Shown: positions 12,954 to 54,595 of the stretch, in pieces
Layout of the letters: each line of letters starts with the position of its first letter
Position numbering within the stretch: the stretch's first letter is position 1
Origin: a virus
Reading direction: 5' to 3' (one strand)
Length of the DNA: 64,000 nucleotides
IMG/VR virus record: IMGVR_UViG_3300023184_007611
Location: 37,046-101,045 of that record
Translations under genes and position numbers: made by a program
The notes under the pieces: model-generated
What the model was told of the DNA's origin: nothing
Database searches by the model: none
The model's input: only the letters and a program-made list of their open reading frames with translations

Positions 12954-13319
12954 ATGTACACAGCAATAGTTTTAGACGAAGAATCTAAAAATAAACTTAA
13001 AGATAAATTTCATTCTTTTTTCAATGACGATTGGAAAATAATTTGCCATCACATGACTATCAACATGGGTAAAGCTTCTGAAGACATTAAAAACATGATA
13101 GGACAAAGGGTTAAATTAGAAGCAGTCACGCTTGCTTTTGACGATCAAGTAGTAGCTGTTGGAGTAATTACAGATGTCCCTTCAGATAATAAAGTAAAAC
13201 ATATTACTGTAGCAGTTAATTACAATAATGGTGGCAAACCATATCTTAGTAATAAATTAACAAATTGGGAGACAATACCAAATATTAAATTGTCTGGGAC
13301 AATTGAAGAAGTTGGTTAA
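12954..13319 (+). CDS. 2H phosphoesterase-like protein
   Basis: A 121-residue protein starting MYTAIVLDEESKNKL. It has two H-x-T motifs, HHMTINMG at about residue 39 and KHITVAVN at about residue 82, spaced as in 2H (LigT/cyclic phosphodiesterase-like) enzymes where the two His-x-Thr pairs flank the active site. Such enzymes cleave or ligate 2',3'-cyclic or 2'-5' phosphodiester bonds. Phage members include RNA-repair proteins and Acb1, which destroys cyclic nucleotide signals of CBASS defence. The protein is small but complete for the minimal fold. Which of these roles applies cannot be read from the sequence. It is followed 8 bases later by a secreted Gly-rich protein gene. Confidence 0.7.
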   Translation: MYTAIVLDEESKNKLKDKFHSFFNDDWKIICHHMTINMGKASEDIKNMIGQRVKLEAVTLAFDDQVVAVGVITDVPSDNKVKHITVAVNYNNGGKPYLSNKLTNWETIPNIKLSGTIEEVG

Positions 13320-13326
13320 ATAAACT

Positions 13327-14187
13327 ATGAGAAAAATAATTGTAATTTTTTTGTTTTTCATAATTGCTTCTACTTCTCAAGCTCAAAAATATAGAAGTAT
13401 TTTACCGCCAAGCCCTCCATTTCCTCCTCCGTTAAACAATACAGTTCAAGCCCAAATTGCCAATCAAAACATTAATTTTAATACTGGAAGTAGTTCTAGT
13501 GGTATTGGTGGTTTTGGCGGTGGATTCCAACAAAATATAGGCGGTATTCAAGGTACTGCTCAATACACACAAAATAATACTCCAGGCATGCAAATTTCGC
13601 AACTTTATCAAATTCCACTTTCTACAGGTGGTGGTGGATTTGGTCAAGGTGGTGGTGGATTCGGTCAAGGCGGTGGTGGATTCGGTCAAGGCGGTGGTGT
13701 CAATACAACTTTTGGTGGCGGATTTGGACAAGGTGGCGGATTTGGACAAGGTGGCGGATTTGGACAAAGCGGTGGTGGATTCGGTCAAGGTAGTGGTGTC
13801 AATACAACTTTTGGTGGCGGATTTGGACAAGGTGGCGGATTTGGACAAAGCGGTGGTGGATTCGGTCAAGGTAGTGGTGTCAATACAACTTTTGGTGGCG
13901 GATTTGGACAAGGTGGCGGATTTGGACAAAGCGGTGGAGTTCAAGCAATTGGTGTGAATAATCTTTTTTATTCTATGGCAATGCAAGGTATTATGTCTGG
14001 TGTTGGTGGTTCAGCATTTCAGAGTGGCGGTGGTGGCAATATGGGCGGTCAAAATATGCGTGGCGGTCAATTTGGTGGTGGTAACATGGGTGGTCAAAAT
14101 ATAGGTGTTTTTGGTGGTGGCAATATGGGTGGTGGTGGATTTGGTCAATTTGGAGGTGGATTTAACAATGGTGATAATGGTCTATAG
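13327..14187 (+). CDS. Secreted Gly-rich repeat protein
   Basis: The protein (286 residues) has a typical signal peptide: MRKIIVIFLFFIIASTSQAQ, with a signal peptidase I site after Ala in SQA. A Pro-rich stretch follows (LPPSPPFPPPL), then a low-complexity body of GGGFGQ and GGFGQSGG units. A larger unit containing VNTTFGGGFGQGGGFGQ occurs three times at spacings of 99 and 81 bases. The end is GGGNMGGQNM-rich. No catalytic motif is visible. It resembles secreted Gly-rich adhesive or cell-wall-associated proteins. In a phage it could be exported to the envelope during infection or be a host-derived gene. The ribosome binding site is weak. Confidence 0.65.
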   Translation: MRKIIVIFLFFIIASTSQAQKYRSILPPSPPFPPPLNNTVQAQIANQNINFNTGSSSSGIGGFGGGFQQNIGGIQGTAQYTQNNTPGMQISQLYQIPLSTGGGGFGQGGGGFGQGGGGFGQGGGVNTTFGGGFGQGGGFGQGGGFGQSGGGFGQGSGVNTTFGGGFGQGGGFGQSGGGFGQGSGVNTTFGGGFGQGGGFGQSGGVQAIGVNNLFYSMAMQGIMSGVGGSAFQSGGGGNMGGQNMRGGQFGGGNMGGQNIGVFGGGNMGGGGFGQFGGGFNNGDNGL

Positions 14188-31851: not shown

Positions 31852-33267
31852 ATGAACTTTAAAAGCTGGCTATTAATAACTGAAATGGCAAAGTCCTTTT
31901 CACCTAAATATCTTGAAACAAATAGTTTACAGGCTTTATCTGAAATTGAACGAAATCCTGTTTTAAAAGCTAGATATAAAATATTGGTATCTGAATGGGA
32001 TAAAAAAAATAATACATTAACTCCTAAAGATGTAACGCTAGGAAGTGAAAAAGAGATAAATTGGAAATGCATTAAGAAAAAACACACATGGTCAGCACCA
32101 CTTAACAGTAGAACAAGAGGTACTAATTGTCCTTGTTGTTCAAACTTTATAGCTTGTAAAGATAATAATTTACAGTATTTATCTAAAAATTTACCAGAAT
32201 CTGATTTAAAAGCTAGATATAAAAGATTGGTATCTGAATGGGATAAAGAAAATAATATATTAACTGCTAAAGATGTACTGCCAGGAAGTAGGCAAGAGAT
32301 AAATTGGAAATGTAAAGAAGGACATCTATGGCCAGCACCAATTAGTAGTAGAACAACATTGGGTTCAAATTGTCCTGATTGTTCATCTACAAACAAAAGA
32401 GTTACTAAAGACTATAATTTACAAGCTTTATCTGAAAATTTACCAGAATCTGATTTAAAAACTAGATATAAATTTTTGGTATCTGAATGGGATAAAGAAA
32501 ATAATATATTAACTCCAAGTGATGTAACGCCAAAAAGTGGTAAAGAGATAAATTGGAAATGCATTAAGAAAAAACACACATGGTCAGCACCACTTAGCAA
32601 TAGAACAAAAGGTTATAATTGTCCTTGTTGTTCAAACCAAGAAGTTTGTAAAGATAATAATTTACAAGCTTTATCTAAAACTTTACCAGAATCTTATTTA
32701 AAAGCTAGATATAAAAGGTTGGTATCTGAATGGGATAAAGAAAATAATATATTGACTCCTAAAGATGTGACGCCAGGAAGTGATAAAGAGATAAATTGGA
32801 AATGTAAAGAAGGACATCTATGGGTAGCACCACTTTCTCGTAGAACAGGAGTGGAAGCAAATTGTCCTACTTGCAATCAATCTAAAGGTGAAGAAAAAAC
32901 ATATGAAATATTACAAAAGTACATAAGTCCAACACAAATTAAACGCCAATATCGGGATACAGATTGTAGAGGAGATTGCTTTTCTTTAAGATTTGATTTT
33001 ATAGTAGAAATAAATAAAAAAAAATACCTTATAGAATATAACGGTCAACAACATTACAGACCAGTATTTGGTTCTACACCAGAGCAAAGACAATCTGCTT
33101 TTGAAAAAGCTCAAAGGTATGATAAAGTTAAATTAGAATATTGCAGAAATAAAAACATTCCTTTTTTGGTAATTCCATATACGAAATATAAAAACATCGA
33201 AACAATAATAAGCAGTTTTCTTAAAACAAAAACTTTTGATAGTAAATTTGCAGAATTAGGATTGTAA
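31852..33267 (+). CDS. Tagged nuclease with four zinc-ribbon repeats
   Basis: The 471-residue protein starts MNFKSWLLITEM (tag, I-T-E). Residues about 20-345 carry four repeats of about 80 residues: LKARYK-x-LVSEWD-x-x-NN-x-LTPKDV, GS-x-KEINWKC, GH-x-W-x-AP, RT, NCP-x-C. These match the probable zinc-ribbon domain DUF4379, in which two Cys pairs bind zinc. The last 120 residues form a nuclease-like domain: a helix SKGEEKTYEIL, RFDFIVEI, YLIEYNGQQHYRP and PFLVIPYT. The Asp in the first strand and E-Y-N-G-x-x-H in the next fit a PD-(D/E)XK or Vsr-like site. Tandem DNA- or RNA-reading repeats with a cutting domain are inferred. The next gene is a tandem paralogue 7 bases away. Confidence 0.75.
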   Translation: MNFKSWLLITEMAKSFSPKYLETNSLQALSEIERNPVLKARYKILVSEWDKKNNTLTPKDVTLGSEKEINWKCIKKKHTWSAPLNSRTRGTNCPCCSNFIACKDNNLQYLSKNLPESDLKARYKRLVSEWDKENNILTAKDVLPGSRQEINWKCKEGHLWPAPISSRTTLGSNCPDCSSTNKRVTKDYNLQALSENLPESDLKTRYKFLVSEWDKENNILTPSDVTPKSGKEINWKCIKKKHTWSAPLSNRTKGYNCPCCSNQEVCKDNNLQALSKTLPESYLKARYKRLVSEWDKENNILTPKDVTPGSDKEINWKCKEGHLWVAPLSRRTGVEANCPTCNQSKGEEKTYEILQKYISPTQIKRQYRDTDCRGDCFSLRFDFIVEINKKKYLIEYNGQQHYRPVFGSTPEQRQSAFEKAQRYDKVKLEYCRNKNIPFLVIPYTKYKNIETIISSFLKTKTFDSKFAELGL

Positions 33268-33274
33268 ATAAACT

Positions 33275-34453
33275 ATGAACTTTAAACATTGGCTGCTAAT
33301 CTCTGAAATGGCAATATTTTCACCTAAATATCTTGAAACAAATAGTTTACAGTATTTATCTGAAAAGGCATCAGATCCTGTTTTAAAAGCTAGATATAAA
33401 AGATTGGTATCTGAATGGGATGGCCCTGAAAATAAAAAAGAGCTTAATCTTACTCCAAGTGATGTAACACCTGGCAGTAAAAAAAAGATAAATTGGAAAT
33501 GTCTTGAAAAAGGACATAAATGGGCAGCAACTCTCAACAGTAGAACAAATGGTGGAAATAATTGTTCTTGTTGTTCAAACCAACAAGTTTGTAAAGATAA
33601 TAATTTACAGTATTTATCTGAAAAGGCATCAGATCCTGTTTTAAAAGCTAGATATAAAAGATTGGTATCTGAATGGGATAAAGACAACACATTAACTCCT
33701 AAAGATATTACGCCAGGAAGTGATAAAAAGATAAATTGGAAATGTAAAAAAGGACATATGTGGAAAGCAGAGCTTAGTAGCAGAACAAGAGATGAGAGTA
33801 ATTGTCCTTGTTGTTCAAATTTTAAAGTTTGCGATGACAATAATTTACAGTATTTATCTGATAATGAAGAAGATCTTGGAAAAAGAGAGAGATATCAAAG
33901 GTTGGTATCTGAATGGGATAAAAACAATATATTAACTCCTAAAGATGTATTGCCAGGCACTGGTCAATTTATAAATTGGAAATGTAAAAAAGGCCATACA
34001 TGGGAAGCATCTCTTGTTAGTAGAACAGGATTGAATTTAAAAACTAATTGTCCTATTTGCAATGAATCTAAAGGTGAAGAAGAAATATTTAAAATATTAC
34101 AAAATTACATAAGTCCAGCACAAATTAAACGCCAATATAAAGATATAGATTGCAGAGGAGATTGCCTTCCTTTACCATTTGATTTAATAGTAAAAATAAA
34201 TGACAAAAAATACTTTATAGAATATAACGGTGAACAACATTACAGACCAACATTTGGTTCTACACCCGATGAAAGGCAATCCGTTTTTGAAAAAACTCAA
34301 AGGTATGATAAAGTTAAATTAGACTATTGTAGAAGTAAAAACATTCCTTTTTTGGTAATTCCATATACGCAATATAAAAACATCGACACAATAATAAGCA
34401 GTTTTCTTAAAACAAAAACTTTTGATAGTAAATTCGCAGAATTAGAATTGTAA
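33275..34453 (+). CDS. Tagged nuclease with three zinc-ribbon repeats
   Basis: A 392-residue tandem paralogue of the preceding gene. It begins MNFKHWLLISEM (tag, I-S-E), has three of the same 80-residue zinc-ribbon units (NCSCC, NCPCC and NCPIC being the second Cys pairs), and ends with the same nuclease domain: ESKGEEEIFKIL, LPFDLIVKI, YFIEYNGEQHYRP and PFLVIPYT. It differs from its neighbour by one repeat and by substitutions throughout. One fewer repeat suggests unequal recombination between repeats. I infer a sequence-reading nuclease delivered with the genome. The junctions on both sides share the sequence AAATAAACTATGAACTTTAA. Confidence 0.75.
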   Translation: MNFKHWLLISEMAIFSPKYLETNSLQYLSEKASDPVLKARYKRLVSEWDGPENKKELNLTPSDVTPGSKKKINWKCLEKGHKWAATLNSRTNGGNNCSCCSNQQVCKDNNLQYLSEKASDPVLKARYKRLVSEWDKDNTLTPKDITPGSDKKINWKCKKGHMWKAELSSRTRDESNCPCCSNFKVCDDNNLQYLSDNEEDLGKRERYQRLVSEWDKNNILTPKDVLPGTGQFINWKCKKGHTWEASLVSRTGLNLKTNCPICNESKGEEEIFKILQNYISPAQIKRQYKDIDCRGDCLPLPFDLIVKINDKKYFIEYNGEQHYRPTFGSTPDERQSVFEKTQRYDKVKLDYCRSKNIPFLVIPYTQYKNIDTIISSFLKTKTFDSKFAELEL

Positions 34454-34460
34454 ATAAACT

Positions 34461-36197
34461 ATGAACTTTAAAGAATGGTTATTATTATCTGAAAACACAA
34501 ATATTGCTCAATTATTAAAGCAATCCAATGATCCAATAATTAAACAAATTAAATCAAATGTAACAAAACTTGTAAATGCTTTCGCTCACAACATAAAAGA
34601 AAACATCAAATCCACTTTCATTAACTTTTATACTTGGAACTTTTATAATTCAAAAGAATCAAACTTTCAAACACACATTTATTCCACTAAAGATTATTTA
34701 ATGGCTAATTACCAAAAACTAAATTTAACCGATCCAAACTTCACACTTGAACAACTAACACAAGAATCAGATGAATGGCACGAAGAATTAGAAGCAAACC
34801 AAGCAATCCCAGCTAGAGAAGCTGAAACTTTTATAGATTTATCTCATTTAGGATCTCAATGGAAAGGCTGGCGATGGGTTTCCTTAGATCGTTATAAGTG
34901 CGAAATGGAAGCAAAAAGTGGTGGGCATTGTGGTAATGCTGCTGGTATAGAAGGAGATAACATACTATCTTTAAGAGATCCGCAAAATATAGCAAATCTT
35001 ACTTTTATCGAAAATAAAGGAATATTAGGCGAAATGAAAGGCATTAAAAATTCAAAACCATCTACAAAATTTCATCAACCAATAATAGAATTACTTAAAA
35101 ATGACAAAATAATAACCATCAAGGGCGGTGGGTATTTACCAAAAAATAATTTTTCATTAGATGATTTAAGTAATAAAGAAGAAATACTTAAATTAAAACC
35201 AGATTTGGATTTTGTAAACTATAATTCAAAACCAGAAAAAATAAAATATCTTACTGATGAAGACATTGAATATCTATTTGATAAAGCAAAAGACAAAGAA
35301 AAAATAGAAAATTTAGTTATTCAAAATAAACAAGATCTTTCCGATGACAATGTTCACCAGTTACTTAAAAATACAAAAAACACATACGAAATGTCAAAAA
35401 TAATAATTAAAAAGAACCCACAACTTTCTGATGCTATTGTTCTTTATTTACTTGAATTTGCACATGACAAAGACGATATGGCTAAAATTATTTTAAATAA
35501 CAAACCAACAATTTCTACTAAAGATGTTTCTACTTTACTTGATAAAGCAACTAACAAAGACGAAATAGCAAAATTAATTATTGAGAAAAATACAGAATAT
35601 GGAAGTAATAAAGTTGTTAATGATAATAAAATTTATTTCTTACTTTATCATGCAATTGATAAAGAAAGCATAGAAAAACTATTAGGAGCGTACAGCTTAA
35701 ATAAGCTTTTTGATAGTACTGTTGCTGAATTTCTTAAATCTTCTAAAGATAAAGACAAAACGGCAGAAATAATCATAAAATACAAAACAAAACTTTCTAG
35801 TAACAATGTTTATAATTTGCTTCATTTTGCAAAAAATAAAGCAAGTATAGCGAAACTATTAGGAGCATATAATATAAGCAATATTTATGAGTTTGATATT
35901 TCTAATTTGCTCCATTTTGCAATCGACAAAGACAAACTGGCGGAAATAATCATAGATTATAAAACAAATTTTGATAATGAGAGTGTTTATATTTTGCTTT
36001 ATTATGCAGTTAACAAAGAAAATATAGCAAAGCTGTTAGGAACAGATAATATAAACAAGCTCGAATTAACTTCTATTAATCGTCTGCTTGATTTTCCGCC
36101 AGATAAACAAAAAATGGCACAAGTTTTAAATCACTATCACACAAAGAAAACACCAGAAATTCAAGAGCTAATAGATAAATACCTACATGAACTTTAA
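34461..36197 (+). CDS. Tagged protein with PcfJ-like core and helical repeats
   Basis: The 578-residue protein starts MNFKEWLLLSEN (tag, L-S-E). Residues about 120-220 hold WKGWRWVSLDRYKCE, GGHCGNAAG, ILSLRDPQNIANLTFIE and GILGEMKGIKN, a block like the H-C-V-G-x core of PcfJ-like proteins. From about residue 270 to the end there are some ten helical repeats of about 35 residues with patterns such as V-x-x-LL-x-x-A-x-DK-x-x-(M/I)-A-(K/E)-(I/L)-I. The end PEIQELIDKYLHEL overlaps the next tagged gene by 11 bases. A decayed copy of this end sits at 52995. No enzyme class can be named. I infer a packaged protein. Confidence 0.65.
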   Translation: MNFKEWLLLSENTNIAQLLKQSNDPIIKQIKSNVTKLVNAFAHNIKENIKSTFINFYTWNFYNSKESNFQTHIYSTKDYLMANYQKLNLTDPNFTLEQLTQESDEWHEELEANQAIPAREAETFIDLSHLGSQWKGWRWVSLDRYKCEMEAKSGGHCGNAAGIEGDNILSLRDPQNIANLTFIENKGILGEMKGIKNSKPSTKFHQPIIELLKNDKIITIKGGGYLPKNNFSLDDLSNKEEILKLKPDLDFVNYNSKPEKIKYLTDEDIEYLFDKAKDKEKIENLVIQNKQDLSDDNVHQLLKNTKNTYEMSKIIIKKNPQLSDAIVLYLLEFAHDKDDMAKIILNNKPTISTKDVSTLLDKATNKDEIAKLIIEKNTEYGSNKVVNDNKIYFLLYHAIDKESIEKLLGAYSLNKLFDSTVAEFLKSSKDKDKTAEIIIKYKTKLSSNNVYNLLHFAKNKASIAKLLGAYNISNIYEFDISNLLHFAIDKDKLAEIIIDYKTNFDNESVYILLYYAVNKENIAKLLGTDNINKLELTSINRLLDFPPDKQKMAQVLNHYHTKKTPEIQELIDKYLHEL

Positions 36198-37899
36198 AAG
36201 CTGGCTATTAATAACTGAAGCAAAGAAATCAAGCGACATTGCCAAAGAACTTCTCGGCAACGATGATTTATTTAAAAAAATAAAATCTATCATTCCAACA
36301 AATATACCAGAAAAATTACAAGGTCAATTACTTCCTATCGCTGCATTCTACTACAACCAAGAAGAACCACAAATTGTGGTTCTAAAAGACTACTTGGAAG
36401 ATTATGCCAATCTTGTAAAAAATCAAAAAATGAACATCATTACAGTAAAAGATGACCTTACTGTTGATGGCGATTTTAAATCTTTTATCCATTGGACTGA
36501 AATAATTGATGTTTTAACCCATGAAGGCAAAGTTATCAATACACCAATACAAGGCGATCTTGAAGGCCAAGAAGTAATCGAACATTCACCAGACCTTAAG
36601 ATAAAGGTTTATCTGGCAAACTCAGCAAATCAATGTATCGTACTCGGCAAAGGTGAATCTTTCTGTATATCAAGACACGGCCCACATAATATGTTCCAAA
36701 CTTACAGAGATACTAAAGTATCAACTTTCTACTTCGTTTATGATAACACAAGAACTGATGACCTTGCAATTACTGTAGTTGATGTAACAGAACATGGTAT
36801 TGAACTTACAGATCGAAAAAACGACACAGCAAAAACTATGCAAGATCCTTATCAAACTACACCAAAAAGAATAACATCAGACCCAGATTTATACTTTAAA
36901 TATTTAAAAGAAAAAGGAATTGATACAACTGTATTCAAAAATATACCAAAATCACCAGAAGAAGAAGCCGAACAGGAAAAATTAGGTAAAACAAATTATA
37001 ATTTAAATTGGTTTAAAGCACTATCACCAATAGAAAAATCTAATTACATAGGAAGAGTACATAGACTTTCAGATCCTCAATTTGATTACATACACGATAA
37101 CAATATTGCTTCATTATTAAAACAATATGTTAAGACTGGTTTGAAACTTGAAAATTATCAGCTTAAAAAAGTTATTGCTAAAAAAGAATTAAAAGATATT
37201 TATTTACATAATAGATTGATATTAGATAGGCAAAATGAAGATCTTTCTAAAGAAGAATTTAATTTATTTACACCAAAACAACAAGAGGAGTTTTATAATG
37301 TTACTGATGAATTAAAAATTCACAAAGCTCTTCAAATTGAAGACTTTTCTCTGGTAACAGAATTGATCGAAAAAGGACAAAGCGTCCCATATTATGCTGC
37401 TGGTCACGCAATAAAGGCAGATAGACTTGACCTATTAAAATATTTTGTAAAACACGGTATGATATTACAAGACTCTAATTCGATTATGTATGCAGTAAGA
37501 TATGGCAGGCTTGATATTTTAAAATACTTGATTGAAGAAAAAAATATTAATGTAGTCCCAACTGATATCGAAGAAGCTTTTAGAAAAGATAATGTTGATA
37601 TTATAAGATACTTAATTGATGAAAAAAAACTCCGCATGCCTTATAATGCTGTTGATATTGCAGCAAGTAATGGAAGTATTAATGTTTTAAAATACTTGAT
37701 TGATGAAAAAAATAAAATTTTTACATCTAGTAATGTAAAATCTGCAAGCCTTTCTGGAGAACTTGATGTTTTAAAATACTTTTTTGATGAAAAAAGTTTT
37801 ATGCTAGAACCTAAAGATTTTCCATTTACTATCAATAATGCAAAAACACAAATAGTTAAAGATTATTTAATACAAAAACAAAAAGAACAAAATAAATAA
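36187..37899 (+). CDS. Tagged protein with YFVYD domain and ankyrin repeats
   Basis: This 570-residue protein begins MNFKSWLLITEA (tag, I-T-E). Residues 20-290 share the domain of the 17852 product: CIVLGKGESFCISR, YRDTKVSTFYFVYDNTR, TPKRITSDPDLYFKYLKEKG. The C-terminal 180 residues are ankyrin-like, with five units such as G-(R/S)-L-D-(I/V)-LKYL-(I/F)-(D/E)EK. The same front domain is thus joined to different rear ends in the two paralogues. Ankyrin repeats normally bind proteins, so a host target is conceivable. The start overlaps the previous gene by 11 bases. Confidence 0.7.
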   Translation: MNFKSWLLITEAKKSSDIAKELLGNDDLFKKIKSIIPTNIPEKLQGQLLPIAAFYYNQEEPQIVVLKDYLEDYANLVKNQKMNIITVKDDLTVDGDFKSFIHWTEIIDVLTHEGKVINTPIQGDLEGQEVIEHSPDLKIKVYLANSANQCIVLGKGESFCISRHGPHNMFQTYRDTKVSTFYFVYDNTRTDDLAITVVDVTEHGIELTDRKNDTAKTMQDPYQTTPKRITSDPDLYFKYLKEKGIDTTVFKNIPKSPEEEAEQEKLGKTNYNLNWFKALSPIEKSNYIGRVHRLSDPQFDYIHDNNIASLLKQYVKTGLKLENYQLKKVIAKKELKDIYLHNRLILDRQNEDLSKEEFNLFTPKQQEEFYNVTDELKIHKALQIEDFSLVTELIEKGQSVPYYAAGHAIKADRLDLLKYFVKHGMILQDSNSIMYAVRYGRLDILKYLIEEKNINVVPTDIEEAFRKDNVDIIRYLIDEKKLRMPYNAVDIAASNGSINVLKYLIDEKNKIFTSSNVKSASLSGELDVLKYFFDEKSFMLEPKDFPFTINNAKTQIVKDYLIQKQKEQNK

Positions 37900-37902
37900 A
37901 CT

Positions 37903-39168
37903 ATGAACTTTAAAAGCTGGCTAATACTATCTGAAAATATAATCGTAAAATGGCAAAAAGATGATGCTGTTTTGATTCCTGCTAAAGATGTCATTTCTTT
38001 TGATTTTTATTATCAATGGGATAAAGGACATTCTGAATACTTTATAGGTGCTTTTAAAGCTGAAAAAAATGGCTACTCTTCAATTGGTGCTAAGTCAACT
38101 CATGTAGGCATAATTAGAAATTCTCCCCTTCATGCTGGTTCAGGAGCAGATTATGGGTTTATTAAAAACTTAATACAAATAATTCAAAAAAATGGATTAA
38201 AACCCATTCCTTATAAAGAAGAAGGTACATTCATTGATAAACATATTTCTAATGCTGAAAAAGAAATAGGACAAAAACTTGATGTAGATCTAGTAAAAAC
38301 TGGCTTTACAACTGGCCAAGAATTACCTGATTTTGAACTAGGACAATCTGCCACTCATCAATTGACAAAAAGTGTTTCTGTTTCTAGAGCTACAGGATCA
38401 TGGGCACAATTCTTTGAAACTATTGATGCAACATCTTTAATTAATAAACTTGTAGATTTTATGGAACAAGCTGCAAAACCTTTGTTAGATAATGATCTGC
38501 TAGACTTTATTGAAATTATTAATAGAAAAAGCGGAAACCACAGAACAATTTATTCTTCTAAAGGTAAAAAAGATTCAGAAGACTGGAAGGCTAATAATAT
38601 TAAAGCTGTATCTCAATTAAAATTTTATGTTGATAAATACTTAACCAATGCTCCTTTTTTAAAAAAAGAATTACTAAAAATAATAAACATAGAAGGATCT
38701 AAAAATGCAGATAAATGGTTCGGGGCAAAAGCAGTACCTAAAGATTATGCGTTACCATTAGATAAATTGTTTGAATTAAACAACAACTCATATGCAGAAG
38801 ATAGTATTATTGATGCGTTTCTTAAAGCAATAAATAATCAAGATAAAATAGAACAATTGGAAATTCTATCAAAAAATCAAAACCTTGATTCCGTTTATTA
38901 TTTAAAGAGTTATTTTTGGGCTAACGAATTCTATGAAGATATGTTTACATCTGATAATATTTTTAATTATCTTATTAATGTTTATGAAATAGTTGTTAAA
39001 CATGGAAAAGCACTTAAGTCTGCATTACAAGAACATTTTGATTACTTCTTGAAAAATATCAAAGAATCATTAGAAGAAGCTTTATCTGATAAGCCTTTTT
39101 TAAGCAAAAATAATATTAAATATTTATCAGAAATAGCTCCTGTTATAGGACTTAAAATTTTACAATAA
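37903..39168 (+). CDS. Tagged protein of unknown fold
   Basis: A 421-residue protein starting MNFKSWLILSEN (tag, L-S-E). The first 130 residues include WQKDDAVLIPAKDVISFDFYYQW, HVGIIRNSPLHAGSG and a Gly-rich patch GADYGF, perhaps a compact alpha/beta domain. The rest is helical. I do not recognise a family and see no clear catalytic motif. It is the fifth member of an uninterrupted co-directional block of tagged genes separated by 3-10 bases, so it is very likely a co-expressed late gene. Confidence 0.6.
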   Translation: MNFKSWLILSENIIVKWQKDDAVLIPAKDVISFDFYYQWDKGHSEYFIGAFKAEKNGYSSIGAKSTHVGIIRNSPLHAGSGADYGFIKNLIQIIQKNGLKPIPYKEEGTFIDKHISNAEKEIGQKLDVDLVKTGFTTGQELPDFELGQSATHQLTKSVSVSRATGSWAQFFETIDATSLINKLVDFMEQAAKPLLDNDLLDFIEIINRKSGNHRTIYSSKGKKDSEDWKANNIKAVSQLKFYVDKYLTNAPFLKKELLKIINIEGSKNADKWFGAKAVPKDYALPLDKLFELNNNSYAEDSIIDAFLKAINNQDKIEQLEILSKNQNLDSVYYLKSYFWANEFYEDMFTSDNIFNYLINVYEIVVKHGKALKSALQEHFDYFLKNIKESLEEALSDKPFLSKNNIKYLSEIAPVIGLKILQ

Positions 39169-39175
39169 ATAAACT

Positions 39176-40201
39176 ATGAACTTTAAACAATGGCTATTAA
39201 ATGAAACCTTTAAACAGACCCCACTGTTAAAGAATCTACATGATTATTTAACAAAACAACACATAAGCGATAAACAATTCATGATTGAATTCTTGAATTG
39301 GTTTGATGAACATCAAGATGATTTAAGAGAATTAGAAGTAGATTGGAAAGATGCAAAAAAACCATATGTACTAGACCATGAAACAAACCAAGAATATGAT
39401 CCTGAAGAAGCTGATGATCATCAATATGCAACTAAGGAATTCTATACTTCAGCAATAGAAATGTATTTAAACGATACATTGAAATTAAACTTAAATAAAG
39501 ATTTTAAACATGTCCAAAAAATAAAAGAGTTTTTAGATAAACCAGAAAATTACTATTTTCTCAGTAGTTTTAAAGAATATATACTTCATAATTATATAAA
39601 CTTTGAAGATTCCATGGACCAAACTTCTGGACATAGATTTTATATTTTTAAAAAATTATTAAATCCAAATAACTGGCTTCTACATTTTACAAATAATGCA
39701 GAATCTATTAAAAGAAATGGATTTAAATTTGGCGTGACAAATTTTGATGATCTGCCTCTTACTAGAATATATGGCTACGATAGAAATAAAGCTGGATATA
39801 ATTTTGCATACCTTTCTAAAGATTATCACACCTCAGACATACCAACTACATATTTAAATACTCATGATCATAAAGAATCTCCAAATAGCGGACTTCTTAT
39901 GTTTAAAAGCTCTGGAGTTCTTGTAGATAATCTTGCAGATCACAATGAGGAAGTTATATTTGATGGAAGTAGTATAAATCCAAAAAATATTGTCGTAATT
40001 AAACCAGAGCGAAGAAAAATATTATTTGTTAACAACCCAGAAAATGGTGGTAAAACAGATGTGTCACCACAAGATAATTATGAAAAATGGATCGTTAAAT
40101 CACAAAACTCCAAATTACCAGACCCTTTCTCTGGTACTATTCAAGATGCAATTCAATGGGTAAAAAATAATTGGAATACTAGTAAAAATATTATATTATA
40201 A
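39176..40201 (+). CDS. Tagged ADP-ribosyltransferase-like protein
   Basis: The 341-residue protein begins MNFKQWLLNETF (tag, L-N-E). The C-terminal half reads NWLLHFTNNAESIKRNGFKFG, later DLPLTRIYG, AGYNFAYLSKD, SGLLMFKSSGVLV and NEEVIFDGS. An L-x-H-F-T strand, a Y-x-F-A-(Y/F) strand and E-E-V-I-F in this order match phage ADP-ribosyltransferase-like domains of the H-Y-E type, where His and Tyr hold NAD and Glu is catalytic. T4 packages three such enzymes (Alt, and relatives ModA and ModB made early), so a packaged ART is plausible. The assignment rests on motif order only. It ends the six-gene tagged block. Confidence 0.65.
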   Translation: MNFKQWLLNETFKQTPLLKNLHDYLTKQHISDKQFMIEFLNWFDEHQDDLRELEVDWKDAKKPYVLDHETNQEYDPEEADDHQYATKEFYTSAIEMYLNDTLKLNLNKDFKHVQKIKEFLDKPENYYFLSSFKEYILHNYINFEDSMDQTSGHRFYIFKKLLNPNNWLLHFTNNAESIKRNGFKFGVTNFDDLPLTRIYGYDRNKAGYNFAYLSKDYHTSDIPTTYLNTHDHKESPNSGLLMFKSSGVLVDNLADHNEEVIFDGSSINPKNIVVIKPERRKILFVNNPENGGKTDVSPQDNYEKWIVKSQNSKLPDPFSGTIQDAIQWVKNNWNTSKNIIL

Positions 40202-47882: not shown

Positions 47883-48548
47883 ATGTGGATTTGTAACAAT
47901 AATCAAAAAGTAATCACTGGGCCTTTGAAAACCCTACTTATTAATGCTGCACATTTTATGATCAATGATATGGTAGGATTCGATATCCCACAAGATATGA
48001 GAAATAAAAAAACAATTGAAGAAATAATTCAAACTTTGAATGAAGAAAATGAAATAGTTGCTTACTTAAACCCAATCTTTGAAAACTTATCTTCATTTGA
48101 AAAAATTTACGCAACACATTATGTCTTAACCCATCTTTTCAATAGTAAAGTTAAAGCTCCTGCTTTATCTTTATGGATGGAAGGTACAATTGATGTTTTG
48201 TTTAATTTAATCATATCTAGTATAGAGGTTGAAATTGATGATCAGGATGAAATTGATGATGAAAAATTTAAATACAGAATGAGAAAGATTGTAGTTGAAG
48301 CAGCCAAACAATATTCTAACGAAAAAGATATTTGTAAGAAAAATATAGAAAAAATAAAAAATGCCGAATTTTGGATTTTTCAAATAAATATTTTAAAATG
48401 TTTGGTGCTTTCTGTCGATGCTTTTGAGGATGATATGGAAGATGCTGAAGCTGGCACTGAACTTAAAGGAGAACACTTGCCAACAATTAAAATTGAAAAA
48501 AAAACTATTGTTAAAATGATAAACGATATATTAAAGATGAAATCATGA
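47883..48548 (+). CDS. Hypothetical protein leading the HNH cluster
   Basis: The 221-residue protein starts at MWICNNNQKVITGPLK, preceded by AAAGGAAATTATA. The middle is acidic (EIDDQDEIDDEKFKYR and DAFEDDMEDAEAGTE). Helical throughout, no family recognised. Its stop overlaps the start of the first HNH gene (ATGA), so translation is coupled to the endonuclease array. That suggests either that the array inserted behind a resident gene or that this gene is part of the module. A folded RNA leader lies upstream. Confidence 0.55.
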   Translation: MWICNNNQKVITGPLKTLLINAAHFMINDMVGFDIPQDMRNKKTIEEIIQTLNEENEIVAYLNPIFENLSSFEKIYATHYVLTHLFNSKVKAPALSLWMEGTIDVLFNLIISSIEVEIDDQDEIDDEKFKYRMRKIVVEAAKQYSNEKDICKKNIEKIKNAEFWIFQINILKCLVLSVDAFEDDMEDAEAGTELKGEHLPTIKIEKKTIVKMINDILKMKS

Positions 48549-49102
48549 AACTACCTTCTATTAACAATATTCCTCTATCTTATATCCAATATGTCGTAAA
48601 GATAGATGCTTCCTCACCTTCTGGACTTACTTGGCTATATAGAAAAGATATGCCAAATAGATGGAATACTAGATTTGCTAATAAACCTGCTGGATGTAAA
48701 TCTACCAACTCAGATGCTTATCAAAAATGGGGGATTAAAATTACTTATAAAGGAAAACAAAAAGGTTTACAAGCCAGCAGAGTTGTTTTCCTTTTGCAAA
48801 ATGAGTATCTTACAAAAGGTAAAGAAGTTGATCATATTGATGGCAATTCACTCAACAACAACCCTCTTAACCTAAGAGAAACTAACCGCTTTCAAAATAG
48901 CTATAATAGCAAACTAAGAAAAAATAATACTTCTGGTCACAAAGGTATTTGTTGGTATGCTTCAAAAAGCAAATGGGTAGTTAGAATAAGAAAAAATGGT
49001 AAAAACCATTTCCTTGGCTTATTTGCAAATAAAGAAGATGCTATCAAAACATCTATAGAAGCACGAAAAAAACTACATGGCGACTTTGGGAGAGATAAAT
49101 AA
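48545..49102 (+). CDS. HNH homing endonuclease with AP2-like end (copy 1)
   Basis: A 185-residue endonuclease. The N-terminal part IPLSYIQYVVKIDASSPSGLTW is shared by all four copies in this cluster. The HNH core is GKEVDHIDGNSLNNNPLNLRE (D-H, N, N with a NLR ending), and the C-terminal part NTSGHKGICWYASKSKWVVRI to LGLFANKEDAIKTSIEARKKLHG is an AP2-like DNA-binding domain. Such proteins are free-standing homing endonucleases in large phages. It ends in ARKKLHGDFGRDK, common to the family, and its ATG and stop overlap with neighbours by a few bases. Confidence 0.88.
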   Translation: MKLPSINNIPLSYIQYVVKIDASSPSGLTWLYRKDMPNRWNTRFANKPAGCKSTNSDAYQKWGIKITYKGKQKGLQASRVVFLLQNEYLTKGKEVDHIDGNSLNNNPLNLRETNRFQNSYNSKLRKNNTSGHKGICWYASKSKWVVRIRKNGKNHFLGLFANKEDAIKTSIEARKKLHGDFGRDK

Positions 49103-49251
49103 TGATAACTTCTGAACCCTTACTTGAAAACTTTGCACTTACTCCTCATCTAATTCTAATATTAGAACAAATTAAAAATGAAGATTATATTCTATATAAA
49201 GAAATAATGGAAACAATACAAAAAAAATTCCAAACCCTAAAAACAAAATGA
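49102..49251 (+). CDS. Small hypothetical protein between HNH genes
   Basis: A 49-residue ORF, MITSEPLLENFALTPHLILIL, with an acidic and then basic helical tail ending FQTLKTK. Its start overlaps the stop of HNH copy 1 by one base, and its end overlaps the ATG of copy 2 (ATGA). The perfect fit between the two genes and the overlap on both sides support translation. No family recognised. Confidence 0.5.
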   Translation: MITSEPLLENFALTPHLILILEQIKNEDYILYKEIMETIQKKFQTLKTK

Positions 49252-49805
49252 AAAAACTAAAATCTATAAAAGGTATTCCTCTATCCTATATCCAATCTAT
49301 CCTTAAAATAGATCCTCTTTCACCCTCTAAACTTACTTGGCTTCCAAGAGAATATGACATAAGATGGAACAATAGATATGCCAATAACCATGCTGGATGT
49401 AAACATACAATCAAAAGTGGATATCAAATATGGGATATATCAATTTCTTATAATGGCAAAAAACTTATATTAACATGCAGTAGAATTATTTTCCTTTTAA
49501 ATAAAGGTTATCTAACTAAAGGTAAATGTATTGATCATGAAGATAATAACCCATTAAATAATAATCCAGATAATCTTAGAGAAAGCACAAAAGGTCAAAA
49601 CAATCTAAACACTAAACTAAGAAAAACTAATACTTCTGGTTATAAAGGCGTTTCTTGGCATAAAACCTGTCGTAAATGGCAAGTAAGAATAAAAGTAAAT
49701 GGCAAAGAACATTACTTTGGCTACTTTGTCAATAAAGAAGATGCTATAAAAGTCGCTATAAAAGCACGAAAAAAACTCCATGGTGACTTCGGGAGAAACA
49801 AATGA
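49248..49805 (+). CDS. HNH homing endonuclease with AP2-like end (copy 2)
   Basis: 185 residues, with IPLSYIQSILKIDPLSPSKLTW, the HNH core GKCIDHEDNNPLNNNPDNLRE and an AP2-like end SGYKGVSWHKTCRKWQVRI to ARKKLHGDFGRNK. The core His and two Asn positions are kept. It differs from copy 1 by many substitutions, so the duplication is not recent. ATGA overlaps link it to both neighbours. It could be a mobile intron-less homing gene or a domesticated nuclease. Confidence 0.88.
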   Translation: MKKLKSIKGIPLSYIQSILKIDPLSPSKLTWLPREYDIRWNNRYANNHAGCKHTIKSGYQIWDISISYNGKKLILTCSRIIFLLNKGYLTKGKCIDHEDNNPLNNNPDNLRESTKGQNNLNTKLRKTNTSGYKGVSWHKTCRKWQVRIKVNGKEHYFGYFVNKEDAIKVAIKARKKLHGDFGRNK

Positions 49806-50338
49806 AACTACCTTCTATCAATACTATCCCCCTATCCTATATCCAATCTATCCTTAAAATAGACCCAACTTCACCTTCTGGTCTAACTTGGATAAAAAAA
49901 TCCAAAATAGCTGGTACTTTGAAGGCTTATAAGGAAAAGGGAGTTCTTACTGGAAAAAAATATTGGGTCATCAAAGTTCCTTATAACGGCAAAAGATATG
50001 ACCTGATAGTTCATCGCATTATATTACTACTTAAACAAAAAGAGTTAGATACAGATAAAGAAGTTGATCATGATGATGGCGATACATTAAACAACAACCC
50101 TGATAACCTTAGAGAATCTACCCATTCTCAAAATATGCACAACAGCAAAGTACCAAAAAATAATACTTCTGGTCACAAAGGAATCTTTTGGCATAAAGCA
50201 AGCGGTAAATGGGAAGTTAGAATAAGACTTAATGGAAAATTATGTAACTTTGGTCTTTATGAAAAACTAGAAGATGCAATCAAAGCATCTATAAAAGCAC
50301 GAAAGAAACTTCATGGTACTTTCGGGAGAATTAAATGA
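49802..50338 (+). CDS. HNH homing endonuclease with AP2-like end (copy 3)
   Basis: 178 residues. The HNH part is KEVDHDDGDTLNNNPDNLRE, with the His retained, and the DNA-binding part SGHKGIFWHKASGKWEVRI to ARKKLHGTFGRIK. The N-terminal half is shorter than in copies 1 and 2 (KSKIAGTLKAYKEKGVLTG). Its stop overlaps the start of a small conserved gene (ATGA). The pair HNH plus that small gene occurs again at 51015-51811, so the two together look like the unit of duplication. Confidence 0.87.
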   Translation: MKLPSINTIPLSYIQSILKIDPTSPSGLTWIKKSKIAGTLKAYKEKGVLTGKKYWVIKVPYNGKRYDLIVHRIILLLKQKELDTDKEVDHDDGDTLNNNPDNLRESTHSQNMHNSKVPKNNTSGHKGIFWHKASGKWEVRIRLNGKLCNFGLYEKLEDAIKASIKARKKLHGTFGRIK

Positions 50339-50580
50339 TCTATGAATTTAGAAATCCTATGCCTGTAGAAACCCCTCTAGGGTATGGGATGCTTGTTTAT
50401 GTCCGTGATGGCGGTATGTTTTCAAACGATGTATTCGCTATTGTCAACGATGTATTCGCTATTGTCTCTGAAGTAGATGGCAAACTTCGCCATTTCCGTA
50501 ACGATCAGTTTAGATTTTTACCAAACCCTACTTTCGATATTGAAAATGTAGGCAATATTCAAGAAAACAAAAACCCTTAA
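50335..50580 (+). CDS. Small conserved protein (copy A), with internal 21-base duplication
   Basis: An 81-residue protein, MIYEFRNPMPVETPLGYGMLVYVRDGG, then NDVFAIV twice in a row, then GKLRHFRNDQFRFLPNPT. The duplicated heptapeptide is a 21-base tandem repeat absent from the near-identical copy at 51575. The N-terminal part looks like a small beta barrel of the kind that follows ETPLGYG in phage proteins. It overlaps the preceding HNH stop by 4 bases. Function unknown. Confidence 0.65.
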   Translation: MIYEFRNPMPVETPLGYGMLVYVRDGGMFSNDVFAIVNDVFAIVSEVDGKLRHFRNDQFRFLPNPTFDIENVGNIQENKNP

Positions 50581-50591
50581 GAGAACCAAAC

Positions 50592-50969
50592 ATGCCAGCA
50601 TTACCTTCTATAAACAATTCAGTAATAATAAATATTAAACCCATTTGCAGGAAAAATGATATAATTAAACAAGCTATCCAAAAGATTCTTGAAGAAAATC
50701 CAACAAAATTCCACAAAGTTAAACCAAATGAAATAATAAAAAAAATTATTGAATTAAACCCAGATTTTAAGCTGAACCATTCTTACAGAGTAATGACTTC
50801 AATATTATTAAAAAAAGAAAAATTAAACCAAAAAAAATTACAAAGTAATAACATAAATCTAAATGATAATATTATAAAACTGGCACTTCGCTTAATTATC
50901 GCAACTGGCGGAGTAAATGAAGCAAAACTAGCTATTCAATCCGCTTACAATTTCATTCATGTAAATTAA
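50592..50969 (+). CDS. Hypothetical protein sharing its start with an HNH gene
   Basis: A 125-residue Lys- and Asn-rich helical protein. Its first residues MPALPSINN and the DNA before it (AAGAGAACCAAACATGCCAGC) are nearly the same as at HNH copy 4 (51015). After that the two diverge, so the upstream part was copied onto an unrelated body, or this body replaced an HNH gene. No nuclease motif is present. The C-terminus ends LAIQSAYNFIHVN. Role unknown. Confidence 0.5.
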   Translation: MPALPSINNSVIINIKPICRKNDIIKQAIQKILEENPTKFHKVKPNEIIKKIIELNPDFKLNHSYRVMTSILLKKEKLNQKKLQSNNINLNDNIIKLALRLIIATGGVNEAKLAIQSAYNFIHVN

Positions 50970-51014
50970 TAATATGTCTTTGTCATACAACAAAAAACCT
51001 TAAGAGAACCAAAC

Positions 51015-51578
51015 ATGCCAGCATTACCTTCTATAAACGATATCCCCCTATCCTATATCCAATCTATCCTTAAAATAGATCCCTCTACCCAAACTGGACT
51101 TACTTGGCTTCTTAGACCAAATGCTCCTAAACAATGGAATACTAGATACGCTAATAAACCAGCTGGCTATAAACATGGCTCCAAAAATACAAATAGACAA
51201 ACTTGGAGAGTAGATATTAAATATGGCGATAAAATATTCAAACTCTTTGCCCATCGTATCATCTGGCTCTTAAATCAAAAAACTATAGACCCAGATCTGG
51301 AAATTGATCATAAAAATGGAAATCCATTAGATAATAGAATAGAAAACCTCAGATTAGATACTAAATCCAAAAATATGCAAAATAGAAAATTATGCTCCAG
51401 AAATACAAGTGGCATAAAAGGCGTTTATTATGATAAATTCCATGATAAATATGTCGCACAAATAAGATGTAATAAAAAAAAGATATGTCTTGGTCACCAT
51501 GATACCAAAGAAGAAGCTCAAAAAGTTGTTGTAGAAGCTAGAAAAAAACTACATGGTGAATTTGGGAGAGATAAATGA
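51015..51578 (+). CDS. HNH homing endonuclease with AP2-like end (copy 4)
   Basis: A 187-residue endonuclease beginning MPALPSINDIPLSYIQSILKID. The HNH core is DLEIDHKNGNPLDNRIENLRL, closer to the consensus DH-x-N-G-x-x-x-DNR than the other copies. The DNA-binding end is SGIKGVYYDKFHDKYVAQIR to ARKKLHGEFGRDK. It overlaps the following small conserved gene by 4 bases. This is the most divergent of the four in the C-terminal domain. Confidence 0.88.
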   Translation: MPALPSINDIPLSYIQSILKIDPSTQTGLTWLLRPNAPKQWNTRYANKPAGYKHGSKNTNRQTWRVDIKYGDKIFKLFAHRIIWLLNQKTIDPDLEIDHKNGNPLDNRIENLRLDTKSKNMQNRKLCSRNTSGIKGVYYDKFHDKYVAQIRCNKKKICLGHHDTKEEAQKVVVEARKKLHGEFGRDK

Positions 51579-51811: not shown

Positions 51812-51884
51812 TCGCTCTGATTAAAAAAAATAATAAATAAATGTAAATAAAATATTATACTAAATAAACATAAAGGTTAATAAT

Positions 51885-52887
51885 ATGAACTTTTTAGTTG
51901 CACAAGGAATCGGAGATTCTATCTGGGGACTCTTTAAAGCACAATCAATCGCACAATACTACAACCAACAAGAAATAAATATAAAAGTCGCAGGAGTTAA
52001 AAATGAAAATAAATGGATACAAACAGTACAAGTAAGAGCACTAGACTTTATTAAAAGATTTGACTTCGTAAATAATGCAGAATTCTATTCTATGCCAGTT
52101 ACTGACAAAAAAGGACCAGTACTTCTAAAAGGCGAAGCTAGTGATCAAAATGGAATCTTAAGATATATAAATCATGGAAAAAATATTTATAAAAACTTGA
52201 AAAATATTGATTACATACTCATCTCAAATCAAATACTAGAACAAGGAAATAGATTGGAAACTTGGTTGCCTCAATTTGATCTAAATTGGGACTTAGTCAG
52301 AAAACATTATAAGTTTACACAAGAAGAAATTGAAATTGCAAATAATCTTAAAAACGAAATAGGTGAATATTGCATCTTCTATCTAGGACCCCGAACAAGG
52401 AAATATAGTCGGAGGTAATGGATTTAATAAAGATGCATTGTGGAAACCAATTGACTGGGTAACTCTAGGAGATTATATCCATGAAAAGTTTGGCCTGAAA
52501 ATACTTGTCATAGGTGCTTCATATGATAATGATTATTACCAAAAATATATTCTTAATAAAATAAAAAATAAAAACTTTTGGATCTCTAAAATTGGAAACT
52601 ATGAAATTAATCAAACCTTTGCAATTTGTAAAAATAGTAAGTTTACAATATCCTATGCAAGCGGTATCGGAATCGTTTCTCATTACTTAGATGTTCCAAC
52701 TTGTATCTTCTGGAGGCCTAAACATAACTCAATAAGTAATAAAAATTATATCTCTTTCAATGAATCAATGTCTTATGCTTGGACTTATCCAGATTGGAAA
52801 GAAAAAGCAAGCTATTATCCAGCCTTCTATACCGTAGATAACCCAAAATCAATCTTTAATGTCATAACTAATAATAAATGGGCCTAA
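51885..52887 (+). pseudogene. GT9-like glycosyltransferase broken by a one-base frameshift
   Basis: Two plus-strand frames form one protein of about 333 residues. The first begins MNFLVAQGIGDSIWGLFKAQS (GIGD-x-(I/L)-W like the start of heptosyltransferase-type GT9 enzymes) and runs to YCIFYLGP. One extra C in the run of four at about 52390 shifts it; dropping one base gives EQGNIVGGNGFNKDALWKP, then DWVTLGDYIHEKFGLKILVIG and SYASGIGIVSHYLDVPTCIFW, the acceptor/nucleotide part of GT9. A C-run indel is a common sequencing error, but phase variation or decay cannot be excluded. If intact it would add a sugar to a surface or virion glycan. Confidence 0.75.
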
Positions 52888-53050
52888 TCCACAACCTATA
52901 TAACTTAAAAGAGGATTTATTTTAAAGTATACTGGAAAAGAAAAAAGATTTATATTAAATGAAATACATACAAATAATAAATAATACATAACAACCAGAA
53001 ATTAAACAACTAATTAATAAATACTTATAATGAACTTTAAACATTGACTA
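52888..53050 (+). pseudogene. Decayed junction between two tagged genes
   Basis: Bases 52995-53030 read PEIKQLINKYL then stop, close to the last residues of the 34461 product (PEIQELIDKYL). Directly after, 53030-53047 reads MNFKH and a TGA where the tag has Trp, then LL in the same frame. So the 3' end of one tagged gene and the start of another survive while the bodies are gone. Bases 52888-52994 hold nothing else I can name. Confidence 0.6.
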
Positions 53051-53806
53051 TTACATTCCCTTTACACCTTCTAATTTAGCACCATCAAATTTACAACCAC
53101 TTAAATCAACTTTGCTATTACCATAATCCCTAAACTCTGCACCACTCAAATCAGCACCACTAAAATCAACATTTTCATATTTTTTAATCGTAGGACCGAA
53201 AATAGCACCTCTACAATCCGAATTAATTAATTTTACATTATTAAAATGACAACTGGCAAAGCGTTGATTTTTAAGTATTGAATTACTTAAATCAACATTA
53301 TTAAAAACACTTTCATTAAACCAAACAGGACCATTTTCAGCACTGAAATCTACAGCCCTCAAATTTACATTAATAAAATCCGCCCCAAATATTCTAACAC
53401 CTTTCCAATTAACACCAGTCAAAATAGCATTAGTAAAATTTGAATAGTGCAACACTGCATTAGTCAAATTAGCACCAGTCAAATTAGCACCAGTCAAATT
53501 ATTCTCTTTCGCTTTAGTACTTCTTCCTTCATACCTGCTTAATATTCTTAGTTCTGCACCTTCTAAATTTGCACCAATTAAATTTGCATCCATTAGTTTT
53601 ACTTTTGTGAATTTTACATTGCTAAGATTAGCACCAGAAAGATTAGCCTTTCTAAAATTAGTACCTGCTAAATATGCACCAGTAAGATTAACATCTGCTA
53701 AATATGCACCAGTAAGATTCACATCATTGTATAAACGCAAACCAACCAATGTATCCGCATTTACACTGTAAATAACTGTTCCATTTTTTTTCTTTATATC
53801 TATCAT
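53051..53806 (-). CDS. Pentapeptide-repeat protein
   Basis: A 251-residue protein made from about residue 30 on of pentapeptides A(D/N)LXX: ANLSGANLSN, GANLEGAEL, GANLTGANLTNAVL and later DLSNSILKN, DFSGADLSGAEF. It forms a right-handed square beta-helix. The N-terminal KKKNGTVIYSVNADTL is a short lead. Members such as Qnr and MfpA mimic DNA and bind gyrase; most are of unknown role, and the acidic repeat here is not obviously of the gyrase-binding type. The 3' end abuts the decayed tag junction. AAAGGAAAT precedes the start on the minus strand. Confidence 0.85.
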   Translation of the reverse strand: MIDIKKKNGTVIYSVNADTLVGLRLYNDVNLTGAYLADVNLTGAYLAGTNFRKANLSGANLSNVKFTKVKLMDANLIGANLEGAELRILSRYEGRSTKAKENNLTGANLTGANLTNAVLHYSNFTNAILTGVNWKGVRIFGADFINVNLRAVDFSAENGPVWFNESVFNNVDLSNSILKNQRFASCHFNNVKLINSDCRGAIFGPTIKKYENVDFSGADLSGAEFRDYGNSKVDLSGCKFDGAKLEGVKGM

Positions 53807-53971
53807 TTTTATTTCCTTTATTTTACTTATTACATATTACCTTTTATTTATTATATATTACCTTGATTTTACTTCGTTTTTACATTATACTGGACTGAAT
53901 AAACTACCACACAGCAAACTCTAAACCACAAAAACGGCAAATTGGTGAAAAAATGGTGTTCAAAAGGTCAG

Positions 53972-54000
53972 CACTGTACTTGTTACACAGTGTTTTTTTA
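53972..54000 (+). terminator. Terminator-like hairpin
   Basis: CACTGT and ACAGTG make a 6-base-pair stem with a 9-base loop, followed by a run of seven T. It lies 20 bases before the GNA1-like start, in the leader between divergent genes, and may be an attenuator. Confidence 0.45.
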
Positions 54001-54020
54001 TACAGCGGTATAATAAATTT

Positions 54021-54434
54021 ATGAAAATAAGATTATTAAAAGAATCAGATTTAGATAAAGGTTTTAAGGATTGTCTAGAAACACTAGGAATTTTCAAGAC
54101 AACAGAGTTAATAAAAGTTTATAAGGAACGGAAGAAATATAAAATAAAAACATTTGTGGTTGTAGAAGGTGACAGAATAATAGCGACAGCTAGTTTAATT
54201 TTAGAACCTAAGTTTAGGTACGATGAAATTTGTGGTCATATTGAAGATGTATGTGTTTTACCAGAAAAGCAAGGATTTGGTATTGGTAAAAAATTAATGA
54301 AGTATTTAATCAATTATGCTAAGCATAAAAAATGTTATAAACTTATACTTAGTTCCGCCAGTAATAACATTACTTTCTACAGTAAACTTGGTTTTCACTT
54401 GCATGAAAACCATTTAAGATTAGATATTATATAA
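54021..54434 (+). CDS. GNA1-like GNAT acetyltransferase
   Basis: A 137-residue GNAT protein. IIATASLILEPKF, GHIEDVCVLPEKQGFGIGKKLMKYL (Q-x-x-G-x-G-K acetyl-CoA loop at about residue 93-101), CYKLILSSASNNITFYSKLGF and the His-rich tail LHENHL match glucosamine-6-phosphate N-acetyltransferase (GNA1) closely, including G-H-I-E-D-V and CYK. It would make GlcNAc-6-phosphate from GlcN-6-phosphate and acetyl-CoA, a step toward UDP-GlcNAc. No tag is present. The gene stands alone between a pentapeptide gene (divergent) and an RCC1 gene. Confidence 0.82.
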   Translation: MKIRLLKESDLDKGFKDCLETLGIFKTTELIKVYKERKKYKIKTFVVVEGDRIIATASLILEPKFRYDEICGHIEDVCVLPEKQGFGIGKKLMKYLINYAKHKKCYKLILSSASNNITFYSKLGFHLHENHLRLDII

Positions 54435-54595
54435 TTATTCGTTATTACACAGCATCAGAGGCCTTTATTTGATGTTTTCTTATAAGCAATAGGAAAAGAC
54501 ATTAATTATTAATAAATGTTATTAAAACGCATTTTAGGAGGTTTTTTAAAAATAAATAATATAAACATAATAAATAATATAAAAGGAATAATAAA

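Follow-up and report, generated by a model that had tools for sequence, protein, structure and literature searches.

A remnant of a tagged-gene junction in a virus genome, probably a scar of recombination among exchangeable cassettes

How does the junction of two genes come to stand at a place where neither gene is present? This question is raised by a 61-bp island at positions 52994-53054 of the window, i.e. the whole analyzed stretch of 64,000 nucleotides, which comprises bases 37046-101045 of a 101,045-base virus record. The initial annotation reported here the sequence PEIKQLINKYL-stop followed by MNFKH-TGA-LL, interpreted as the relic of a junction of tagged genes, and both parts are present as described, at 52995-53027 and 53030-53053. 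The locus is composed as follows:

51885-52887 (+): glycosyltransferase-like gene, the left neighbour, with one frameshift near 52400; its homolog is intact in the closest relative, G001
52888-52992 (no strand): AT-rich spacer from the glycosyltransferase-like gene to the relic, without tagged-gene homology by profile and comparison
52995-53030 (+): orphan 3' end PEIKQLINKYL-TAA of a 34461-family gene whose body is missing; homology starts at 52994 and is within the variation of intact paralogs
53017-53023 (+): ATAAATA, T4-late-promoter-like, six bases 5' of the orphan ATG and inside the NKYL codons
53030-53053 (+): orphan tag MNFKH-stop-LL, by sequence, with TGA as the Trp codon and no ORF after it
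53051-53806 (-): convergent pentapeptide-repeat gene of 251 aa (ORF, domain), with a stop codon (53051-53053) that coincides with the last codon of the orphan tag

The TAA stop of the orphan gene end (53028-53030) shares its last base with the ATG at 53030, and the codons of the tag are ATG AAC TTT AAA CAT TGA CTA TTA. Relative to CATTGGCT of the 33275 tag, it was right to describe the TGA as a Trp codon changed to a stop. Of the interval first assigned to the relic, 52995-53047, the start holds but the end does not, as the true right edge lies at about 53053/53054.

Tagged genes encode proteins that open with MNFK-x-W-L-L-x-x-E, a motif found at the start of many unrelated proteins in viral contigs. 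The relic is located 13 kb past the main run of these genes, with one tagged start, 46578, in between. The run includes the following features:

31852-33267 (+): tagged gene MNFKSWLLITE with DUF4379 repeats (ORF, domain)
33275-34453 (+): tagged gene MNFKHWLLISE with DUF4379 repeats (ORF, domain)
34461-36197 (+): tagged gene MNFKEWLLLSE, a repeat protein (ORF), with its own G001 alignment block (34454-36198, 97.5%)
36152-36210 (+): best intact match to the relic in the window (alignment, BLAST), consisting of the 34461 end and the 36187 start with an 11-nt overlap
36187-37899 (+): tagged gene MNFKSWLLITE with ankyrin repeats (ORF, domain) and its own G001 alignment block (36175-37941, 95.9%)
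37903-39168 (+): tagged gene MNFKSWLILSE with its own G001 alignment block (37893-39177, 99.7%)
39176-40201 (+): tagged gene MNFKQWLLNE; by comparison, the G001 sequence departs at its ATG, into a convergent gene

The island matches the junction between the end of gene 34461, whose product terminates in PEIQELIDKYLHEL, and the start of gene 36187 with 80% identity (BLAST within the record, E 2.9e-9). Both gene parts are in the correct order and orientation, and their spacing is near-correct. The alignment score was 59, compared to a mean of 16.4 (sd 2.8, maximum 29) for 4000 random segments. The half 5' of the ATG alone scored 39, which was reached by 0/20,000 segments (maximum 26). ATGAACTTTAAA occurs in eight exact copies in the record, at seven gene starts and at the relic site. 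A profile was built from eight junctions of this kind, found in the window and in related phages; it matched only 52994-53054 at this locus and nothing further out, in agreement with the earlier statement that the gene bodies are missing. Homology upstream of 52994 was found neither with the profile nor by comparison with family members, and no trace of either gene body was detected in the 105 bases upstream or anywhere downstream. Homology breaks off sharply at both edges, the right one being the stop codon of the convergent pentapeptide-repeat gene. The 11-codon end is 5 to 9 bases off other family members, which are themselves 2 to 10 off each other, and the orphan tag is two bases off the closest intact tags, one of these bases being responsible for the stop. 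Nothing of either body is left, although the fragment itself shows hardly any decay.

The tag was characterized in a set of 61 distinct tagged ORFs, all of them 60 aa or longer and diverse in their bodies. As a motif only, [LIFM]xE occurs at residues 7-13 in 52/61 tagged proteins versus 15/171 control ORFs, with a P1 Glu at position 10 or 11 in 48/65. A late-promoter-like element is located between -25 and -1 at 33/61 tagged starts versus 14/162 other ORFs. All 13 MNFK tags of G001 and of G000, the genome with genes 34461, 36187 and 37903, encode Asn by AAC, a codon with a share of 22% in these genomes; the 13 tags are not independent, as they include some duplicates or homologs.

Internal proteins II and III of T4 begin with MKTYQEFIAEA. 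The first 10 residues of IPIII are enough for packaging, with targeting depending mainly on residues 4 and 7 and processing on residues 8 and 10 (PMC9026906). Ip1-3 have only the leader in common; they are injected and inhibit restriction enzymes of type IV (PMC12373910). The ip genes are accessory, vary between relatives and encode a leader of ~10 residues with Leu/Ile-x-Glu near its end (PMC9026906, PMC3012670, PMC12373910). Like these proteins, the 61 tagged ORFs have a short N-terminal leader in common while being otherwise unrelated, and an [LI]xE-type protease site, identified by motif only, lies at about residue 10. In contrast to the T4 leader MKTYQEFIAE, the leader here is MNFKxWLLxxE; the layout is common, but the residues are not. 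A further difference from the T4 ip genes is that the tagged genes form a row of at least six, with a leader that is conserved at the DNA level and contains crossovers. Of 19 tag-bearing records, six larger ones have a gp21-type protease (PF03420) and seven a gp23-type capsid protein; neither was found in the window's own 101-kb record, which is probably a fragment. Based on these motifs, we infer that the tag may be a capsid-targeting leader of the T4 internal-protein type, cut by a gp21-like protease, and that the tagged proteins are probably packed into the phage head. The window genes 15871 (MKSFEIYLIE) and 21088 (MKTFEIYMIE) have starts that look intermediate between the T4 leader and the MNFK tag. 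At 13319-13327, the AAATAAACT-ATG context also precedes the untagged gene 13327, which has a signal-peptide-like start; this indicates that the promoter element is not confined to tagged genes.

Scars equivalent to the relic, as well as insertions or deletions of cassettes with breaks in the tag, are present in relatives. G001 (86,926 bases) harbors the same tagged block plus extra genes. A 633-aa tagged gene is inserted between its homologs of 34461 and 36187, which abut in the window. This insert is flanked by 24-bp direct repeats ATAAATACCTACATGAACTTTAAA, and its left border consists of an intact gene end and a tag cut after seven codons (MNFKQWLTNY-stop). A second extra cassette, of 329 aa, is positioned before the 37903 homolog. 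The 37903 tag of the window, AAAAGCTGGCTAATACTATCTG, matches the left G001 tag through TGGCTA and the right G001 tag beyond, and such a hybrid of two G001 tags indicates that the crossover took place within the tag. Downstream of its 421-aa gene, G001 tracks the window through AATAAACTAT, keeps AATAAATAAACTAT and then continues into the 3' end of a convergent gene. This site has the same anatomy as the 53 kb relic and is its closest parallel. In a third lineage, represented by the three contigs L032, L048 and L069, a 198-aa foreign gene separates a family gene with the truncated tag MNFKQIIKIL-stop from an orphan 3' end of the family, after which comes an intact tagged gene. When 43 distinct tag-start sites of related loci were surveyed, four orphan tags with tag-like continuation or context emerged, along with two more short matches that look like chance. 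At L085:7030 (-), the tag MNFKQWLENKNHSRKI-stop has ATAAATA upstream and is parted by the in-frame stop from a 481-aa gene whose start lies 60 bases downstream; it is a detached tag. At L091:4687 and L032:4867, unrelated upstream genes share the near-identical end GCTGCAAARTAAACT before the next tag, which suggests that gene ends, too, may be common across cassettes.

The positions of breaks were mapped by aligning G000 to G001 and scoring block ends against ORF starts. Genes 34461, 36187 and 37903 were each covered by one separate block. At a distance of up to 30 bp, block ends were present at 7/10 tagged starts versus 13/94 other ORF starts (Fisher p 3e-4); at up to 60 bp, the counts were 8/10 versus 22/94. 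These numbers have to be read with the tendency of alignment blocks to extend to a repeated tag in mind. In general terms, the mobility of tagged cassettes is well supported. The initial annotation had gone further and regarded the relic as direct evidence that cassettes were lost or moved at this very locus. A real junction relic is present and relatives gain and lose cassettes at such junctions, but this does not amount to proof for the 53 kb locus itself.

Taken as a whole, the island is best explained as an orphaned cassette junction, a scar of recombination among exchangeable tagged cassettes, and this explanation is considered probable. The last 11 codons and the stop of a 34461-family gene would here be joined to a tagged gene's first eight codons. 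Tagged genes would represent exchangeable cassettes with nearly identical DNA in common, namely the late-promoter-like element, start codon and tag, and recombination within this common stretch would add, remove or replace whole genes. Some events may be homologous on one side and abrupt on the other, so that an unrelated gene is then found beside orphan gene ends and truncated tags; at 53 kb this neighbour would be the convergent pentapeptide-repeat gene, starting exactly where the tag breaks off. The exchange presumably relies on the phage's own homologous recombination, and the 53 kb copy may result from one or two recent events. Several points weigh against this explanation. The state of the 53 kb locus before or after such an event was found in none of the related genomes: queries with the glycosyltransferase, pentapeptide, MoxR ATPase and acetyltransferase genes, as well as a search of phages with the DNA of 51880-54500, yielded no relative with this neighbourhood. 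The junction is without a linked recombinase or nuclease. Moreover, phage breakpoints generally prefer gene borders, and the observed clustering may be somewhat inflated.

A rather unlikely alternative is that 53 kb was once the site of two complete tagged genes, which deletion and decay removed in place, so that the junction alone survived. The order, orientation and spacing of the gene parts agree with such a history, but the missing traces of the bodies and the position beyond the main tagged run do not. A barely decayed remnant with sharp edges and absent bodies would be more easily explained by a recombination event of which the junction alone was left than by gradual loss; at the least, a small piece of a junction remaining after recombination suits the edges and slight decay as well as the loss of two genes in place does.

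It is improbable that the island is a retained functional element, i.e. a late promoter or an RNA signal for the pentapeptide gene or a neighbour. Its ATAAATA is intact and it overlaps the stop codon of the convergent gene. However, this promoter would face a 5-codon ORF and, beyond it, the 3' end of the convergent gene, no terminator-like stem-loop was found in 52800-54100, and promoter-like sites occur at background level. In addition, the 11 upstream codons have coding homology, which is needless for a promoter.

An assembly artefact, in which reads from another phage or from the real junction at ~36.2 kb would have been built into the 53 kb site, is very improbable, although the record is a metagenome assembly and the neighbouring gene has a frameshift. 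The identity of only 80% to the nearest junction argues against a misplaced copy, the exact shared stretches of 12-24 bp are short for assembly errors, and equivalent scars recur in contigs of different samples. Chance resemblance in AT-rich DNA, raised in the initial annotation as a counter-explanation, is practically negligible despite an island GC content of only 18%, as the scores are far outside the background and the half 5' of the ATG is significant alone.

Interpreted as a scar of recombination among tagged cassettes, the island can be compared to known modes of gene exchange. T-even phages are already known to vary in their injected-protein genes, and PeSLs, mobile cassettes of T4-type phages with an early promoter and a stem-loop, are a known case of shuffling at shared regulatory DNA (Arbiol 2010 and Comeau 2014, as cited in PMC4503421). 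As outlined in that account, PeSLs are short, conserved intergenic regulatory DNA that provides homology for modular gene shuffling (PMC4503421). The direct repeats, hybrid tag and breakpoint enrichment observed here likewise point to gene exchange by recombination at shared elements. Unlike PeSLs as described there, the common stretch here consists of a late-promoter-like element and the coding start of the next gene, and the search for a stem-loop near the relic was negative. The variant found here is that breaks occur within late-promoter and leader DNA, leaving readable scars. Like integron gene cassettes, rows of unrelated genes are swapped at common border sequences, but this is a resemblance only: the borders are heterogeneous and one-sided, as in ordinary recombination, and a non-systematic look revealed neither a tyrosine integrase nor attC-type structures. 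It is possible, though doubtful, that in this phage group the DNA of late promoter and leader serves as a dedicated border of cassettes, a recombination module at the nucleotide level. A growing set of probably injected proteins would there be exchanged in frame together with their packaging tag, while orphan junctions would be scattered through the genome as readable scars. If so, the packaging leader would double as a gene-exchange site, and a newly captured gene would come equipped with a promoter, a start and a packaging signal. Scars in uncultured phages would make it possible to trace how probably injected phage proteins turn over, and a simple sequence flag would be available for many candidate injected proteins.

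The intact G001 homolog of the glycosyltransferase-like gene (L082:8724-9695) stands in a different setting from that of the window, and the frameshift near 52400 is either a real mutation or a sequencing error. For the pentapeptide protein, only distant pentapeptide proteins were found in isolated phages. The 34461 family was not found in bacterial genomes, and among isolated phages only Salicola phage SCTP-2 gave a partial match. Just before the relic, four related genes lie close together at 48545-51578, and the three tested match HNH_3 with AP2-like domains; homing-type nucleases in this position could favour local rearrangement. A serine recombinase (PF00239) is encoded within the tagged block of three contigs (L032:2354-3289, -), and its last 61-70 residues recur as the tail of a different protein beside the G001 tagged block (L081:1042-1656, +). 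This recombinase was considered as the mover of cassettes and dropped, as none of its kind was found in the window record. DUF1559 prepilin-like proteins (PF07596 and N_methyl) are encoded at L094:10720-11676, which belongs to the same record outside the window, and at L082:12002-12949. Planctomycetes have greatly expanded this family, so a planctomycete may be the host.
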